DNA of 64,000 nt from an uncultured Pseudomonadota bacterium (GTDB taxonomy: Bacteria; Pseudomonadota; Gammaproteobacteria; Ga0077536): positions 1-64,000 of the forward strand of contig CAIKBL010000051.1 of NCBI GenBank assembly GCA_903825645.1, written 5' to 3'. Shown here piece by piece: positions 10,163 to 25,548 of this stretch. The notes under the pieces were generated by a model. The model made no database searches and had not been told where the DNA came from. It saw only the letters and a list, made by a program, of their open reading frames with translations. The translations under genes and the position numbers were made by a program. The stretch's first letter is position 1; the number at the start of each line of letters is the position of its first letter.

Positions 10163-10307
10163 GATGAATCCTCTCCCTCGGTCTGTGTTCTTTTGTGTGC
10201 CGCCCGAGCGCGTAAGTGCGCGCCGGACAAGCATTACGACTAATTTCCTGACAAGTAGTATACGGGGAGACGGGGAGTGAAAAATTCCAAATTTACTAAT
10301 ATTAATC

Positions 10308-10337
10308 ATTATTTTGGATAAAAATATCCAAAATAAT
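10308..10337. promoter_or_regulatory. perfect 13-bp inverted repeat between leuA and lrp-like gene (likely operator)
   Basis: ATTATTTTGGATA (10308-10320), a 4-nt AAAA spacer, then its exact reverse complement TATCCAAAATAAT (10325-10337). A direct repeat ACTAATATT flanks it at 10295-10303 and 10358-10366. The block lies in a strikingly AT-rich stretch between divergent leuA and the Lrp/AsnC gene. Lrp-family proteins bind AT-rich palindromes and commonly autoregulate and control a divergent neighbour, so this is the best candidate binding site. The regulatory assignment is inferred; the symmetry is read directly. Confidence 0.7.
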
Positions 10338-10394
10338 AAAAAAAATTAGTGGAATAAACTAATATTCAGATATCAGAATTTTAGGCAGCAAGCG

Positions 10395-18969: not shown

Positions 18970-19902
18970 ATGGCCGTTCGTGCTGGTTTTGGTATCGCGA
19001 GCTTCCCGTTTGATGCGCCCCGGAGCTGGTTCGAGTGGGTCCAGCTGCTGGAAAGTTATAAAGTCGACTCGGTCTGGCAGACCGATCGACTCGTCTCGAT
19101 AGATCCCTATTTGGAAACCATCAGCGTGATGGCGACGCTTGCCGGCTGCACGGAGAAAATAAAATTCGGCATGAATGCCATTGTGGCGCCTTTGCGGGAT
19201 CCGCTCGTGCTGGCAAAGCAATGTGCGACGATTGATTACCTGAGCAACGGTCGGTTGTTGCCCATGTTTGGAGTGGGTTACCCGAATGCCGCCGAATGGC
19301 GCAGCACGGGCCAAAACCCCGGGGAGCGTGGCGCACGGTCATCCGAAATTTTCACGTTGCTGTCGATGCTTTGGAGTCAGGAATCGGTGACCTTTGAAGG
19401 CAAATTCTACAAATACAAAGATGCCACCATTTCACCGCGGCCTATTCAGCAGCCTTTGCCGTTATGGATAGGAGGCAATGCCGAGGCGGCGCTGAAGCGT
19501 ACGGCGCGATTGGGCTCTGGCTGGATTGGCGGTATTACGACACCGGAACAGGTTGGTCACGCGATCAATACAATCAAGACGGAAGCGATAGCGGTCGGCC
19601 GACATATCGATCCCGACCATTTTGGGACTTCGCTCGCATTCCGCATCGGCACACTCGACGATCCGGTGGTTAGCCAATTCCCACTGGTACGGCGTGCCGG
19701 TATTGGTGATGAAATCGATCTGCGCCCCCTGCTTGCCATAGGGACGGTCAAAGAAATCATTGCTCGAATTGAAGCCTACAAAGCGATGGGGGCATCCAAG
19801 TTTGTGTTGGTCCCCATCGCGATGGGTGACCGGGATGTCTTTGATCAAACACGACGTGCCTGCGAAGAAATTTTGCCCGCTATTGAGGATCGCAAATCAT
19901 GA
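18970..19902 (+). CDS. LLM-family flavin oxidoreductase (LLM 2)
   Basis: A 310-residue luciferase-like/F420-dependent-type oxidoreductase. The barrel signature reads LSNGRLLPMFGVGYPNAAEW, and a PLPLWIGGNAEAALKRTARL segment is the common bend before the C-terminal strands. The last four bases (ATGA, 19899-19902) overlap the start of the enoyl-CoA hydratase gene, showing translational coupling. The pairing with an enoyl-CoA hydratase suggests it acts on a CoA-bound or acid intermediate, but the substrate is not deducible. Confidence 0.88.
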   Translation: MAVRAGFGIASFPFDAPRSWFEWVQLLESYKVDSVWQTDRLVSIDPYLETISVMATLAGCTEKIKFGMNAIVAPLRDPLVLAKQCATIDYLSNGRLLPMFGVGYPNAAEWRSTGQNPGERGARSSEIFTLLSMLWSQESVTFEGKFYKYKDATISPRPIQQPLPLWIGGNAEAALKRTARLGSGWIGGITTPEQVGHAINTIKTEAIAVGRHIDPDHFGTSLAFRIGTLDDPVVSQFPLVRRAGIGDEIDLRPLLAIGTVKEIIARIEAYKAMGASKFVLVPIAMGDRDVFDQTRRACEEILPAIEDRKS

Positions 19903-20723
19903 CCGACGCGCTCATTCTGACTAATCTGAGAGAGGGTGTGTTGACGCTTACGCTCAATCGGGCCGACAAGCTCAACGCGATGAGTTATCCCATGCTGGAT
20001 GCGCTATTAGCGGCGCTCGATCAAGCGGATACTGACGACGAGGTGCGAGCCATCATCCTGACGGGTTCTGGGCGCGGCTTCTGCGCGGGTACTGATCTGT
20101 CAGGGGGAGCGGAGACTTTTAGTGCGTCGAAGAAAACCGACATGGACGAACATCGAGATGCGGGTGGCGTCCTCGCGCTCCGTATTTTTGATCTGCTTAA
20201 GCCTGTCATCGCGGCTATCAACGGACCCGCGACCGGCGTTGGGATCACCATGACGCTCCCGTGTGACGTCAGGATCGCGTCCACCACGGCGCGTATGGGC
20301 TTTGTGTTTGTCCGGCGCGGTATTGCACCCGACGCGTGCAGCTCGTGGTTTGCGCCAAGGATCGTCGGGATCAGCCAGGCCGCGCAATGGTTTATGAGTG
20401 GTCGGGTGTTTGATGCAACAGAGGCGTTACAGGGCGGATTGGTCAAAGAGCTCGTGGCACCGGAAGCGCTGTTGGCGCGGGCGCACGAGATCGCACGACA
20501 ATTTGTAGTCGATACGAGTCAGGTCTCGGTGGCCGTTACGCGTCGTCTGCTGTGGCGCATGTTGGGTGCCACTAATCCGCGGGATGCTTTTAGCCAGGAA
20601 TCGAAGACGCTGTGGTATATGGGGAAGGGAATGGATTCGAAGGAAGGCGTGACCAGCTTTCTCGAAAAGCGGGCACCGGAGTTTTCCATGCGGGTGGCGC
20701 GCGATTTCCCCGATTTTCTCTAA
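19899..20723 (+). CDS. enoyl-CoA hydratase/isomerase family protein
   Basis: Crotonase-superfamily protein of 274 residues. The first oxyanion segment reads AIILTGSGRGFCAGTDLSGG and the second KPVIAAINGPATGVGITMTL. At the hydratase catalytic Glu positions the RRGIAPDACSSWFAPRIVG stretch lacks the usual double-Glu pattern, so isomerase, dehydratase or hydrolase chemistry is possible. The C-terminal helices are intact. The ATG overlaps the stop of LLM 2. Confidence 0.9.
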   Translation: MTDALILTNLREGVLTLTLNRADKLNAMSYPMLDALLAALDQADTDDEVRAIILTGSGRGFCAGTDLSGGAETFSASKKTDMDEHRDAGGVLALRIFDLLKPVIAAINGPATGVGITMTLPCDVRIASTTARMGFVFVRRGIAPDACSSWFAPRIVGISQAAQWFMSGRVFDATEALQGGLVKELVAPEALLARAHEIARQFVVDTSQVSVAVTRRLLWRMLGATNPRDAFSQESKTLWYMGKGMDSKEGVTSFLEKRAPEFSMRVARDFPDFL

Positions 20724-21048
20724 AGCATTTTCGAAAAAATTAGCGCCTGATTTTGTTTGGCGGCTAGTCATCAATCAGGATGCCGCACGAGGCTGCTTCA
20801 GCGAACAAGAATGATTACTTATCTCGCACAGATAGGAGCCGCTGCAGTCGAGATTAAGACCGCCGACTGAACGGGGGTTGTCCGAGCGGCGCCGCCGGAT
20901 AGGTTCGCGATCTGGGTTCTGCTCGTGAAATCTGGCGCATGCGTTACATCCAGCGCATCAACGCGAAAATAGCGCGACCTCGACGCTCTTACTCGACTAG
21001 TGATGACATTCTTGGCTGAGCACGCCTCCCGCGCGGGAGATATGCCGG
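20724..21048. other. 325-bp gap without a recognisable gene
   Basis: The sequence between the enoyl-CoA hydratase gene and the interrupted binding-protein gene. A minus-strand frame (20819-21064) contains ASRSRYFRVDALDVTHAPDF, which is peptide-like but has no identifiable family. No clear promoter or hairpin was found. Confidence 0.4.
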
Positions 21049-22176
21049 GTGTGGCGTAGCGCATGGTGCACCGCTTTATGCGGCGCTTCGTTAGCGGTTG
21101 CTCCGCGTTCAGTAGGGGCCGTCGAGATACCTCAGATCGGCGCCGATCAGGCCTATGCGCAGCATGAGTTGGCAGGCCTCACCGACTTACCCAAATGCAT
21201 ATCGCCAGGCCCAAGTTTCGATGTGCATAACGTCATCGACGGGAAATCCACTCTGATCATCGCGTGCGGTACTAACCTCAGCATGACTTTGCGTTGGTCC
21301 AGTGGGATCAAGGACGCCGCAGAAGCCGTCGAATATCCGACATCCATATGGCTTAACCGGGGAAACCTTTCCGAATACTAGCAAGGACTGATGAGCGCCC
21401 TGGGAACCAAGCCGTCACTCGTCGATCTCGTCGGCTGCACAAACCCGGCGCTACTCAAGAAAGAGATCGATGCGGTGAAGGCGGCCGGGTCGACGCATCA
21501 TCACAGGGTGGGGCGGGTGGCGCCGAACGGGCGTTATCGCGTACCACTCGACTTTGTCCGCGCCGGCCGGTTGCTTGCCGACCGGGTCATCATGAAATAT
21601 CCAACGGCGCGTGTGCTCGTGCTGGTTTCGGACGAATATGCCTGTACAAAAGTGATGAGGGCAGCCATCGAAGACGAATTCCATCGTCATGGGGCGCGAT
21701 CTATCCAATATAAAATGATCAATGTGATTTTGGAGCAACGGCATACCGTCATCCCACCCGTGGTTCTGGCCGCCGTGGCTGATGATCCCAAGCTGACCTA
21801 TGTCATCGGCATGTATGATTCCATGGTAGTGGATATCGCCGCGGCGCTCGCCGAGGCAAGGGTAGACAAACGGATCAAGATCATTGGTTTCAATGAAACG
21901 CCGGACGCTATTGATCTCGTCAGGACATGCAAAGCCGAAATGGTGATCGCCGAGGGTATCGAATGGAGCGGGTACGCTATCGCCGACGCCGAAATGCGGA
22001 TCTTGGCAGGACTCCCTGTCCCCCAAACCCTGGCCTTTCCTTTCCGGATCTTTACCCGGGAGAACGCGGCGGAAGCGGGTGTGCCGGCACAATACGACGA
22101 AGGTTTCGGGACCGACTACAAGCACCAATTCCTCAAGTTATGGCAGGTGCCGGCTGCGCCTGTGGCGCGGTACTAG
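21049..22176 (+). pseudogene. periplasmic sugar-binding-type protein split by in-frame TAG
   Basis: A type-1 periplasmic-binding-protein (RbsB-like) gene of about 376 codons. It carries one in-frame TAG at 21379-21381 and otherwise a continuous frame. Before the stop: a weak secretory-like N terminus (LCGASLAVAPRSVGAVEIP) and the first lobe start TLIIACGTNLSMTLRWSSGI. After it: LMSALGTKPSLVDLVGCTNP, VLVLVSDEYACTKVMRAAIE, KIIGFNETPDAIDL and the end of the second lobe. No ABC transporter permease or ATPase gene is nearby. The GTG start at 21049 is tentative. A nonsense-mutated pseudogene is most likely; readthrough or two separate products cannot be excluded. Confidence 0.72.
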
Positions 22177-22412
22177 ACGGGCGCTCGACATTACGTGCCG
22201 CAGTCCCTCGTCCACGTCAGCTATCAGTGGACGGGTTCAACGCCGCCTGCAGTGAGAGTCCTTTGAAGGGGCACACGCGATACGCGGCGGATCTTTAAGT
22301 CGCCCCCTGTAAGCGTCTGAGAGAAAGCACCTGTTTTTGGCTATAGGCGCGGAAAGCACAGGGCGTAAGCGTTCTTCTCGGGGTATAAGCCTAGGGCCTG
22401 TGATCTTTCGCA

Positions 22413-22870
22413 TTACATTGGCAACCAAACCATCACGAATGCCAGCGCAAGCATGCTGGCGAAGTTCCGTGCAAGCTTGCCCCATCTTGTTGCGATGGCG
22501 CGGAAATGTTTGATTCTGGCAAACCTGTTCTCGACCAAATGCAGATACTTGTGCAGACACCAGTCCATCCCGTCGTTGCCCCGGGTATTGTGCTTGCGAC
22601 GGGGAATAACCGGCTGTGCGCCACGCCCCTCGATGGCTTCTCTTAGCGCCTGACTGTCGTAGCCTTTATCGGCAATCACGTATTCGCTGAAAGGCGTGCC
22701 TTCGAGCAACGACGCGGCCCTGGAAATATCGCTGAACTGGCCCGTCGAGCGCTCGAAATGAACGGGGAGTCCATAACTGTCTTCCGCCAAATGGCTCTGG
22801 GTGGTACTGCCGCCTCGGCTCTTGCCGAGTTCTCGGCATGATGGGCTCGCTAATTCTAGTGTCGTAGCGA
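22413..22870 (-). pseudogene. IS5-family transposase C-terminal fragment
   Basis: The frame encodes the C-terminal half of an IS5/IS427-type DDE transposase: ELGKSRGGSTTQSH, then EGTPFSEYVIADKGYDSQAL with a catalytic Asp, then ARIKHFRAIATRWGKLARNF near the end. The glutamate region (KYLHLVENRFARIKHF) is present. The N-terminal half is missing: upstream of about 22870 the similarity stops. A possible terminal sequence (AGGGCCTGTGATCTTTCG) lies at about 22393-22411. This is a truncated, inactive element beside the decayed binding-protein gene and the tandem array. Confidence 0.8.
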
Positions 22871-23104
22871 CCCCAATATTACCGGGTCCTTCATGCCGCC
22901 TTCTTTTGTCTTTCCTGAAAGATCAACAGGCCCTAGGACACTCCGGGTAGGGGGCGACGCGATGGAACGGGCACGCCGTCTCGAGATACCGCACGCAGGC
23001 GAGCGGGTGGCCCCACCTGTCGCCAGGTTTGAATGGATTGTGTCGTCAGTCAGCCGAGCGGCGAGAAGGGAACGTGCGAGTATGTTGACAAGAGGCACTC
23101 ATAA

Positions 23105-23960
23105 TATGCATTTAATCTTGCGCGCGCGGGCAAATATAGAGAGGAGGGGCCGCGCGGGGCTGGCAGGACACTGAGAGTTTGATGGGCGCAGTGAATCGTT
23201 CCTGGACATCCCTAGGGTAAAAAACCTCAGATGGATTGTAAAGTATATACTTCAATTACCTTAAAAATAACAAGATTTTTATTTTATTAGCTATCGATCT
23301 CTGCACAGATCTCGGTAAGAAAACCACGGGAAATTTCACACTGCTCGAAGAAGGATGTCCCGAACGGCGGTTGGCGGGGCACCGGACCGCGGGCGGAAAT
23401 TATCTGATCATTCTCGGACGTCGCTGGTGCCAGCGATCTCGACTATATTCTCAAGAAGATACCGTAATAGTCTAAAATTTAACTAAAAATTAATATTTTA
23501 TATATCGATTTTTGCGCAGATCTTGGTGAGATAGCCGGCGGAAATTTCGCGTTGCCTGGAGAAGATGGGCCGTGCGACTGTTGGCAGGGTACCGCATCGT
23601 GGGCGGGAAGCAGCTGATCGGTCACGGATCTCCAAGGTGGCAATAACCTAATGTAGATTATTACAAATATATTCCAATTAATTGAAAAATATTAAAATTA
23701 AACTAAAATTTTCGCGAACGTTATTGACTTAGCGCATGGAAAATCCCCTGTCACAGGGAGAAAAGATGTCACGCGGACGAGCAGGACACAGGCGGAGGAG
23801 CGGGGATAAAATTAACGTAGATAACTTATTATAAAAATACTCCAACTAAATGAAAATTAAACTAAAAAAATTTATCGCTATCGACAGCTATACAGAGCAC
23901 GGTGACCCTACCGCGCGCAATTCCACGGTACGAACCGGCCGCCGAGGTGCCAGATCGTCA
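23105..23960. repeat. degenerate tandem array, four to five units of roughly 170-230 bp
   Basis: Units alternate an AT-rich block (containing AAAATTAAACTAAAA-like runs) with a GC-rich block. The anchor TATCGAT..CTGCACAGATCTCGGTAAG occurs at 23292, its relative TATCGAT..TTGCGCAGATCTTGGTGAG at 23503, a diverged form near 23708, and another near 23879. The GC-rich part includes GAAATTTCGC-like sequence, then a purine-rich GAGAAGATG, then CGNNCGG..TTGGCAGG. A tail of a further unit is at about 23135-23215. Three units carry an ATG at the same place (23355, 23565, 23766) opening Arg-rich frames of 43, 28 and 22 codons. The first two are similar (VGxxPxRGR). No identical repeats or spacers, so not CRISPR. 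Origin unknown. Confidence 0.7.
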
Positions 23961-24030
23961 TAAAGCGGGAGCTTTATCAGGCCCGATCGGGCATAATGGT
24001 CGTTGTTTTCCCTACCGGCCGGAATTCCCC

Positions 24031-24333
24031 ATGAAGCTTTCAGGTTATACCCCGCGGAATGCCGTCGATGGGCTGATTCACTTCCCCATACTCGAGTGTT
24101 GGAATCCGGTCACGAAGTGCGTGAGCATTGCGGCTGACGTTAATGGTCGGCGGGTTCTCTGCCGGATCCCCGAGACCGTTCTCAAAAAGCGGTTCGATGC
24201 CGTCGATGGCGGACCTACCGCGCAGGTCTCGGCTAATCGGCGGGTTATCGAGGCTGCGGCGACCGGACTTATTCAGAAAAAAGCGTTCGCAGCCGACGGT
24301 ATGATTGACATCCGTTTGGAAGATTTCGGCTGA
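24031..24333 (+). CDS. DUF1488-like small protein
   Basis: A 100-residue protein with a central segment VNGRRVLCRIPETVLKKRFD, which resembles the DUF1488 pattern of a (V/I)xGxxVxCxI(S/P)xExL stretch. No signal peptide or membrane segment. The ATG at 24031 was chosen over 23902 because the upstream frame runs into the tandem array and has a different composition. Function unknown; the family suggestion is by eye. It lies just 3' of the array and convergent with ltaE. Confidence 0.6.
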   Translation: MKLSGYTPRNAVDGLIHFPILECWNPVTKCVSIAADVNGRRVLCRIPETVLKKRFDAVDGGPTAQVSANRRVIEAAATGLIQKKAFAADGMIDIRLEDFG

Positions 24334-24358: not shown

Positions 24359-25360
24359 TCACGCGCGACGTTGGCGTGTGAAACGCTTCGCCACGTCGAG
24401 CAAATGCGCGATGTCCTCGGTGCTGACGTCTAGATGAGTGACCAGACGAAGCCGTTCTCCTGGTAATACCTTGATATCATGCTGGGCAAGATATGCCGAA
24501 AAGCCGGCCGGCGCGTGCAAGAAAACCATATTCGTTCTCGCGGGCGTCGCCTCGTAACCCGCATGAAGCAATCCCTCGGACAGCATGATGGCGTTGGCGT
24601 GATCTTCGGCCAGTCGCTCCACGTGGTGTTCGATCGCGTATAGGCCCGCGGCTGCAAGGAACCCCGCCTGCCGCAGGCCCCCACCCAGAATTTTCCGACA
24701 CCGATGTGCCCGCGCGATGAATGTCTGACTGCCGCAGAGCAGCGTGCCTGCGGGCGCACCGAGGCCTTTCGACAAACAAAGTGAGACGGAGTCGAAGCCA
24801 GCGCACAGTTGACTAATCGGACGTCCCATAGCCACCGCAGCGTTGAACAGACGAGCGCCATCGAGATGTAAGGCGAGACCGTGACGTCTGGCGAGCGCCT
24901 GCGCGGCGTGGACAAAATCGGGTGAAAGGATGCGTCCCCCGATCGTATTCTCCAAGGCCAGTAGTCGGGTTCGCGCGAAATGCGGATCGTCTGGCTTAAT
25001 CGCGGCTTCCACTTCGGCGAGATCCAGCGAGCCATCTGCCTGGTTGGCGAGTGGTTGGGGCTGGATCGAGCCGAGCACTGCGGCACCGCCGGCCTCGTAG
25101 CGGTAGGTATGCGCCTCCTGCCCCACGAGATATTCGTCGCCCCGTCCGCAATGGCTCATTAATGCGGCTAGATTCGACTGGGTGCCGCTTGGGAACCATA
25201 GCACTGACTCAAACCCGCACAAGGCCGCTGCCTGTTGTTGGAGGCGATTGACGGAGGGATCATCGCCGAACACATCGTCGCCCACGTCGGCGTCGAACAT
25301 GGCCTGCCGCATGCCGTCAGTGGGGCGGGTCACCGTATCCGAGCGTAGATCGATACTCAT
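24359..25360 (-). CDS. ltaE: low-specificity L-threonine aldolase
   Basis: PLP-dependent (fold type I) aldolase of 333 residues converting L-threonine or allo-threonine to glycine and acetaldehyde. IDLRSDTVTRPTDGMRQAM is the classical N terminus, LHLDGARLFNAAVAMG carries the PLP-ring Asp, and SVSLCLSKGLGAPAGTLLCG contains the Schiff-base lysine. The ATG at 25360 (MSIDLRSD) is preferred to the in-frame TTG two codons upstream. It stands alone, convergent with the DUF1488-like gene. Confidence 0.94.
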   Translation of the reverse strand: MSIDLRSDTVTRPTDGMRQAMFDADVGDDVFGDDPSVNRLQQQAAALCGFESVLWFPSGTQSNLAALMSHCGRGDEYLVGQEAHTYRYEAGGAAVLGSIQPQPLANQADGSLDLAEVEAAIKPDDPHFARTRLLALENTIGGRILSPDFVHAAQALARRHGLALHLDGARLFNAAVAMGRPISQLCAGFDSVSLCLSKGLGAPAGTLLCGSQTFIARAHRCRKILGGGLRQAGFLAAAGLYAIEHHVERLAEDHANAIMLSEGLLHAGYEATPARTNMVFLHAPAGFSAYLAQHDIKVLPGERLRLVTHLDVSTEDIAHLLDVAKRFTRQRRA

Positions 25361-25548
25361 GGTCAATCTGTATCCATTTTTGTCGCGGTATCCGTCGTCA
25401 GGCGATCTGTGCGCGCCCTAGTGCTGGCCGCCAACATTTGATGGTGGGTAAGGAATGCGTACGCCACCTTGTCCGGCAGGGGTACTTTAGGATTGCGTCA
25501 GTGGCCGCGCACGCACGACTACTGACGACCCCAAGTCAAGAATGGAAT

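Follow-up and report, generated by a model that had tools for sequence, protein, structure and literature searches.

What are the diverged direct repeats that lie between an IS5-family remnant and a DUF1488 gene, and do they carry a function? A sequence-only reading of the window (the whole stretch of 64 kb analysed here) had described them as a worn tandem array of alternating AT-rich and GC-rich blocks with coordinated small open frames, and had proposed that each unit could be a small gene, a small RNA or a protein-binding site. Our analysis favours, with a probability of about two in three, a duplication in tandem of noncoding DNA, specific to this lineage and now decaying, for which no function of its own could be detected.

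Homology and layout of the repeat units

Direct repeats in register occupy positions 23015 to 23970, arranged head to tail with a unit of about 210 bp, as four clear copies and a fainter fifth:

About 23015 to 23225, no strand: U0, the faint unit, placed by its alignment with U2 and by diagonals 420 and 422
23226 to 23441, no strand: U1, an AT-rich block and, after it, a GC-richer body that carries TATCGAT and CAGATCTCGG
23442 to 23650, no strand: U2, built in the same way as U1, its GC-richer body carrying TATCGAT and CAGATCTTGG
23651 to 23812, no strand: U3, AT-rich block common to U4, then a diverged body without both motifs
23813 to 23965, no strand: U4, AT-rich block, TATCGAC and CAGAGCACGG, then a shortened body that ends at the insertion edge

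The local alignment of U1 with U2 spans about 175 bp and scores 132, compared with 28.4 (s.d. 4.7) for locally shuffled copies, and none of 300 shuffles scored as high. The pairs U1/U4, U2/U4 and U3/U4 reach 52, 35 and 65, each likewise unequalled in 300 shuffles, and the weaker pairs U2/U3 and U1/U3 were equalled in 4 and 15 of 300, respectively. In a self-comparison, off-diagonal similarity is evident: the top ungapped diagonals, at offsets 211, 210, 422 and 168, score 33, 32, 26 and 22, all above the maximum of 20 found in 100 local shuffles. A profile of U1 to U4 searched against the 64 kb matches 23230–23406, 23443–23616, 23652–23812 and 23820–23974 (E 2.6e-43 to 1.5e-31; start-to-start steps of 213, 209 and 168). 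To take this as evidence of homology would be circular, because the profile was built from the very units that it recovers. The profile reveals no further clear copy in the 64 kb, the next match having an E value of 1.2.

U0 aligns with U2 at a z-score of 4.9 (none of 300 shuffles as high in one test, 1 of 400 in another) and is in register with the array on diagonals 420 and 422. It shows no match above chance to U1, U3 or U4, and the U1–U4 profile also misses it. The flanks of the IS5-family element hold no additional unit leftward, a strong U0 match there being a trivial overlap.

Dedicated software gave a different answer: at a score of 30, Tandem Repeats Finder missed the array, its sole detection being a run of 2 x 11 bp, while the alignments and diagonals show direct repeats. 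The array of four to five units is thus a true feature, borne out by alignments with shuffled controls, off-diagonals and profile, which repeat software overlooked.

Composition and motifs of the units

In each clear unit, an AT-rich block of 51–68 bp with 12–24% GC is followed by a body of 96–148 bp with 50–58% GC, so that the alternation read from the letters holds in all four. This contrast is retained despite heavy divergence; it could reflect selection on composition, and it counts against pure decay. Elsewhere in the 64 kb, 50 bp windows below 26% GC are confined to a single place, 10281–10380.

Motif conservation is less complete. The motif TATCGAY-N6-RCAGAKCWYGGTRA, of 21 positions, occurs in U1, U2 and U4 at 23292, 23503 and 23879, and was absent from all 100 shuffled versions of the window, although it was derived from these same units. 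The motif set CAGATCTYGGTRAGA...GAAATTTC is present in U1 and U2 only, and in U3 neither was found. The recurrent motif order that had been described is therefore complete in two units and not in every one.

Distribution in other genomes

A profile built from U1, U2 and U4 (R1) recovered in the genome of origin three units of this locus (E 1.5e-20 or better). No other confident locus was found in 36 family genomes, nor a second one in 369 sampled class genomes (own included in both sets), the latter under stricter filters that lose weak matches. At E up to 1, R1 had matches in 21 of the 36 family genomes, own included; those outside the array reached at most 17.3 bits with a best E value of 0.011, and we took them as chance. 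An 881 bp blastn query against 40 genomes (own and 39 relatives) matched the own genome only, and positions 23100–24000 gave nothing at 1e-5 among 50,697 phage and 72,556 plasmid records.

Shorter queries returned further candidates. Searching U2 by blastn in six genus genomes, with E values of up to 10 allowed, gave many short matches, with U1 and U4 unlisted, which makes this search weak for diverged copies; six of its loci were examined by reading. The best other place, in the own genome (C8; E 0.004, 40 bp, 80%), was rejected, as GC content nowhere in its 3 kb locus drops below 45% over 60 bp. With U1 and U2 together (425 bp), 4 others among 398 phylum genomes gave one match of 28–64 bp each (E 5.6e-5 to 7.4e-4), all within query positions 228–287, the AT-rich block of U2, and judged low-complexity by that position. 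The motif TATCGAY-N6-RCAGAKCWYGGTRA occurs in 1 of 369 class genomes, namely the own genome, three times. A two-motif pattern, which within the window picks out U1 and U2, had no match in viral contigs; one viral contig (L165) with TATCGAY-N6-RCAGAKCWYGGTRA was set aside as chance, the surrounding 400 bases being gene-like, without an AT-rich block, and matching the unit profile at E 0.45. The search of the clade thus yields one confident locus, in the own genome, and no description of this array was apparent in our literature searches.

Insertion site and neighbouring genes

The array forms the right end of an insert of about 3.2 kb that separates an enoyl-CoA hydratase gene from the DUF1488 gene:

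19899 to 20723: enoyl-CoA hydratase gene, upstream neighbour of the insertion
20724 to 23960, no strand: lineage-specific inserted segment, right edge uncertain by about 10–20 bp
22391 to 22936, minus strand: IS5-family element with an internal deletion (DDE_Tnp_1 match; IS5-family annotation of matching plasmid records)
24031 to 24333, plus strand: DUF1488 gene (100 aa), neighbour outside the array (PF07369, E 2.7e-10)
24359 to 25366: beta-eliminating-lyase gene downstream of DUF1488, by family a threonine aldolase

The gap between hydratase and DUF1488 is 3307 bp here, compared with 115 bp in G002 (L004), 69 bp in G003 (L005) and 71 bp in G001 (L006), so that the insertion is absent from this junction in 3 of the 5 other genus genomes. 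G004 has DUF1488 with no hydratase match within the 3.3 kb compared, and G005 has no DUF1488 match. Alignment to G002 breaks off at 20719 and restarts at 23971, at the end of U4. Counting the own genome, 6 of the 36 family genomes have DUF1488, and tblastn (1e-6) did not find it in 80 named loci. Ahead of the gene, at 23989, stands GGGCATAAT, which is also found in the G001–G004 loci (L004–L007) and is absent from the G013 locus (L008); it is perhaps the DUF1488 promoter.

The IS5-family element has near-identical inverted ends, with CTAG at 22391 and 22933, and lacks about 330 bp relative to the G024 copy (L157), the joint lying at about 22828/22829. Its left part is 94–95% identical to three copies in the own genome and G002, and 71% and 77% to two others; its right part is 91–94% identical to copies in G002 and G024. 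Because the left part is that close to three other copies, its sequence suggests that this remnant arrived later.

Further left, the region 21049–22176 has a fragment similar to a periplasmic protein of the sugar-binding kind (Peripla_BP_4; its 28.4 bits fall short of the 35.1 cut-off), and a second reading frame adjoins this fragment upstream; the two are possibly one broken gene. DNA related to this fragment at 67–71% exists elsewhere in the own genome.

Domain and sequence matches confirm both neighbours named by the sequence-only reading, the IS5-family remnant and DUF1488. Its description of a decayed accessory patch is also supported: the insertion is lineage-specific and contains both an IS5-family element with an internal deletion and a fragment resembling a periplasmic binding protein.

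Divergence and age of the duplication

Between the bodies of U1 and U2, 32% of the 146 aligned columns differ. From copy to copy the bodies are 35–68% alike, and because those of U3 and U4 are only 35% identical, we conclude that parts of the array did not decay alike. At fourfold sites, differences between the own genome and G002 amount to 58% in the hydratase, 64% in DUF1488 and 67% in the aldolase. If both kinds of site evolve neutrally, the lower divergence of the bodies makes the U1/U2 duplication look younger than the split from G002, which agrees with the absence of the insertion from that genome.

Transitions account for 13 of the 16 differences between U1 and U2 over 23293–23353, for 14 of 29 over 23354–23440, and for 28 of 46 across the aligned bodies. 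In the gapped alignment of this pair, changes between A/T and T/A make up 10 of 24 differences in the AT blocks versus 4 of 46 in the bodies; along ungapped diagonals that take in AT blocks, and that overlap one another, the result is mixed (3/17, 3/6, 4/21, 5/32 and 10/37).

The units show no consistent coding signal

The units might derive from a small protein gene that expanded in tandem and then wore down, with a plus-strand frame for peptides like MSRTAVGG/MGRATVGR or a minus-strand frame ending in LTKICAKID. Some features encourage this idea: an ATG falls in the identical column in U1 (23355) and U2 (23565) and two columns off in U3 (23766), with purine-rich sequence ahead, and on the minus strand the reading frames end in EISRGFLTEICAEIDS in U1 and EISAGYLTKICAKIDI in U2. 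The substitution pattern does not follow suit. U1/U2 differences fall on the three codon positions as 9, 11 and 9 over 23354–23440, and as 7, 4 and 5 over 23293–23353.

We compared 66 combinations of frame, block and pair with simulated neutral changes; U1/U2, U1/U3 and U2/U3 were among the pairs covered, and U3/U4 and U0 lay outside. Amino-acid similarity was equalled in at most 15 of 300 simulations in 5 of the 66, near the 3 or so expected by chance. The plus-strand frame of the U3 ATG stands above chance in U1/U3 (9/300) and U2/U3 (8/300), two pairs that are non-independent; in U1/U2, however, it is not favoured (255/300), it contains one stop, and it differs from the ATG frames of U1 and U2. 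No frame was favoured in all pairs tested. Among six peptides, none matched Pfam at E values of up to 10, and there was a single PHROGs match, at E 0.21. The "coordinated small open frames" thus stand as start columns shared by U1 and U2 and approached in U3, with no consistent coding signal, and we regard the small protein gene as very improbable.

The tests gave no consistent sign of an RNA array

Alternatively, the units could be an array of small-RNA or leader-RNA genes, in which the AT-rich block would be a promoter and the GC-richer body a short transcript. The alternation of composition fits such a layout, as does the number of promoter-like (4 versus 1.5, s.d. 1.2, in shuffles) and terminator-like matches (3 versus 1.3, s.d. 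1.5), an excess to be read with the fact that shuffling spreads the AT-rich blocks regionwide. Yet no promoter-like site occupies a position shared among the units, positions and strands both differing. All eight folds (both strands of four unit bodies) were no better than shuffles, with z-scores from -0.90 to 0.44. A consensus fold of three units had an unfavourable covariation term of +0.62, though 3 of its 22 pairs were kept through two-sided changes.

A known structured RNA was discarded: Rfam at gathering thresholds gave no match in the window, and a relaxed search of 22800–24100 gave three, at 18 bits against a gathering score of 83, 17.6 against 65.6 and 17.2 against 40, each less than half. 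The proposal that a unit is a small RNA is accordingly unsupported, and an RNA array of any kind appears quite unlikely.

A possible protein-binding array

In a third reading, the AT-rich blocks or the TATCGAT...CAGATC motif would bind a regulator or nucleoid protein that acts on DUF1488 or on the insert. Three observations speak for it. The motif is common to three units; the composition contrast persists in four; and the array ends about 25 bp ahead of GGGCATAAT, conserved upstream of DUF1488. Motif spacings of 211 and 376 bp (U1, U2, U4) correspond to 20.1 and 35.8 turns at 10.5 bp, a helical phasing that is suggestive only, resting on two measured spacings, with the U0 and U3 anchors placed by register.

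Against this, U3 lacks the motif, and relatives possess DUF1488 without the array. A search limited to the Histone_HNS domain (PF00816) found no match in the own genome, while the control worked: of 14 control genomes, the one from E. coli matched. H-NS-bound AT-rich DNA was rejected on this ground. The binding array of the sequence-only reading therefore finds no support, and we rate it as rather improbable.

Origin of the array

The reading that we prefer, duplicated and decaying noncoding DNA, builds on the tandem homology, the single locus among the searched genomes, the lineage-specific insertion, and coding and RNA-structure tests without a consistent signal. From these we infer how the duplication came about, that the array evolves neutrally, and in what order the events took place. 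In this account, about 210 bp of noncoding DNA, made of an AT-rich spacer and a GC-richer stretch, would have been duplicated in tandem inside the insertion upstream of DUF1488. Unequal recombination or replication slippage is the most likely route to the four or five copies, which would afterwards have drifted through point changes and indels. Of the origins first proposed, that of a worn expansion is upheld by the diverged copies that lie in tandem within a lineage-specific insertion; that the expanded unit was a small gene is not.

Selection on the units is poorly measurable because all copies come from one locus. A bolder view sees the four or five AT-rich/GC-richer modules as a spaced nucleoprotein locus or a multi-copy regulatory RNA locus upstream of DUF1488, in which selection would keep the composition and the 21-position motif as the remainder of each unit drifted; we consider it decidedly unlikely.

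Comparison with known repeat classes

The sequence-only reading recognised no IS, CRISPR or known repeat class in the array, and in our tests the CRISPR, IS, MITE and REP/BIME classes did not fit it. CRISPR arrays have near-identical repeats of 20–50 bp between unlike spacers, whereas here homology extends over entire units of about 210 bp, which have diverged, the repeat families being 60–76% alike, save a 13 bp pair at 92%. MITEs are intergenic repeats with terminal inverted repeats and dispersed genome copies. The array is intergenic too, but its unit has no inverted ends: three inverted pairs exist in 22800–24200, two of them AT-rich at 77% and one a 14 bp palindrome at 23976–23997. As to dispersed copies of an IS or MITE, R1 has only two other matches in the own genome, at E 0.1. 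REP/BIME elements are intergenic with many short palindromic copies per genome (PMC2817692); the array shares the intergenic setting but occupies one locus and has no unit-wide palindrome.

Two classes come closer. The E. coli type I toxin-antitoxin loci LDR/Ldr-Rdl and Sib/Ibs consist, like the present array, of intergenic units a few hundred bases long that are repeated in tandem and carry small reading frames; the array, however, has no conserved small hydrophobic reading frame in the pairs tested and no family match, and this type was rejected with no frame favoured across those pairs. Degenerate intergenic tandem duplications or minisatellites are a general class of bacterial chromosomal repeats, and the array resembles them in being head-to-tail, noncoding, confined to a single locus and lineage-specific. 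What sets it apart is the length of its unit (about 210 bp), a strong alternation of AT-rich and GC-rich parts, bodies that are only 35–68% alike, and the failure of Tandem Repeats Finder to detect it.

The locus illustrates how a tandem array with long and strongly diverged units can escape tandem-repeat software; the empty hydratase/DUF1488 junction dates it relative to relatives. If selection acts on its composition contrast, the locus would represent a small regulatory array for which our literature searches gave no description.

The other AT-rich patch of the window, at 10281–10380, has 12–16% GC in 50 bp windows and lies directly before a reading frame that, read by eye, resembles an Lrp/AsnC regulator. 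It contains a TTTTGGAT...ATCCAAAA dyad.
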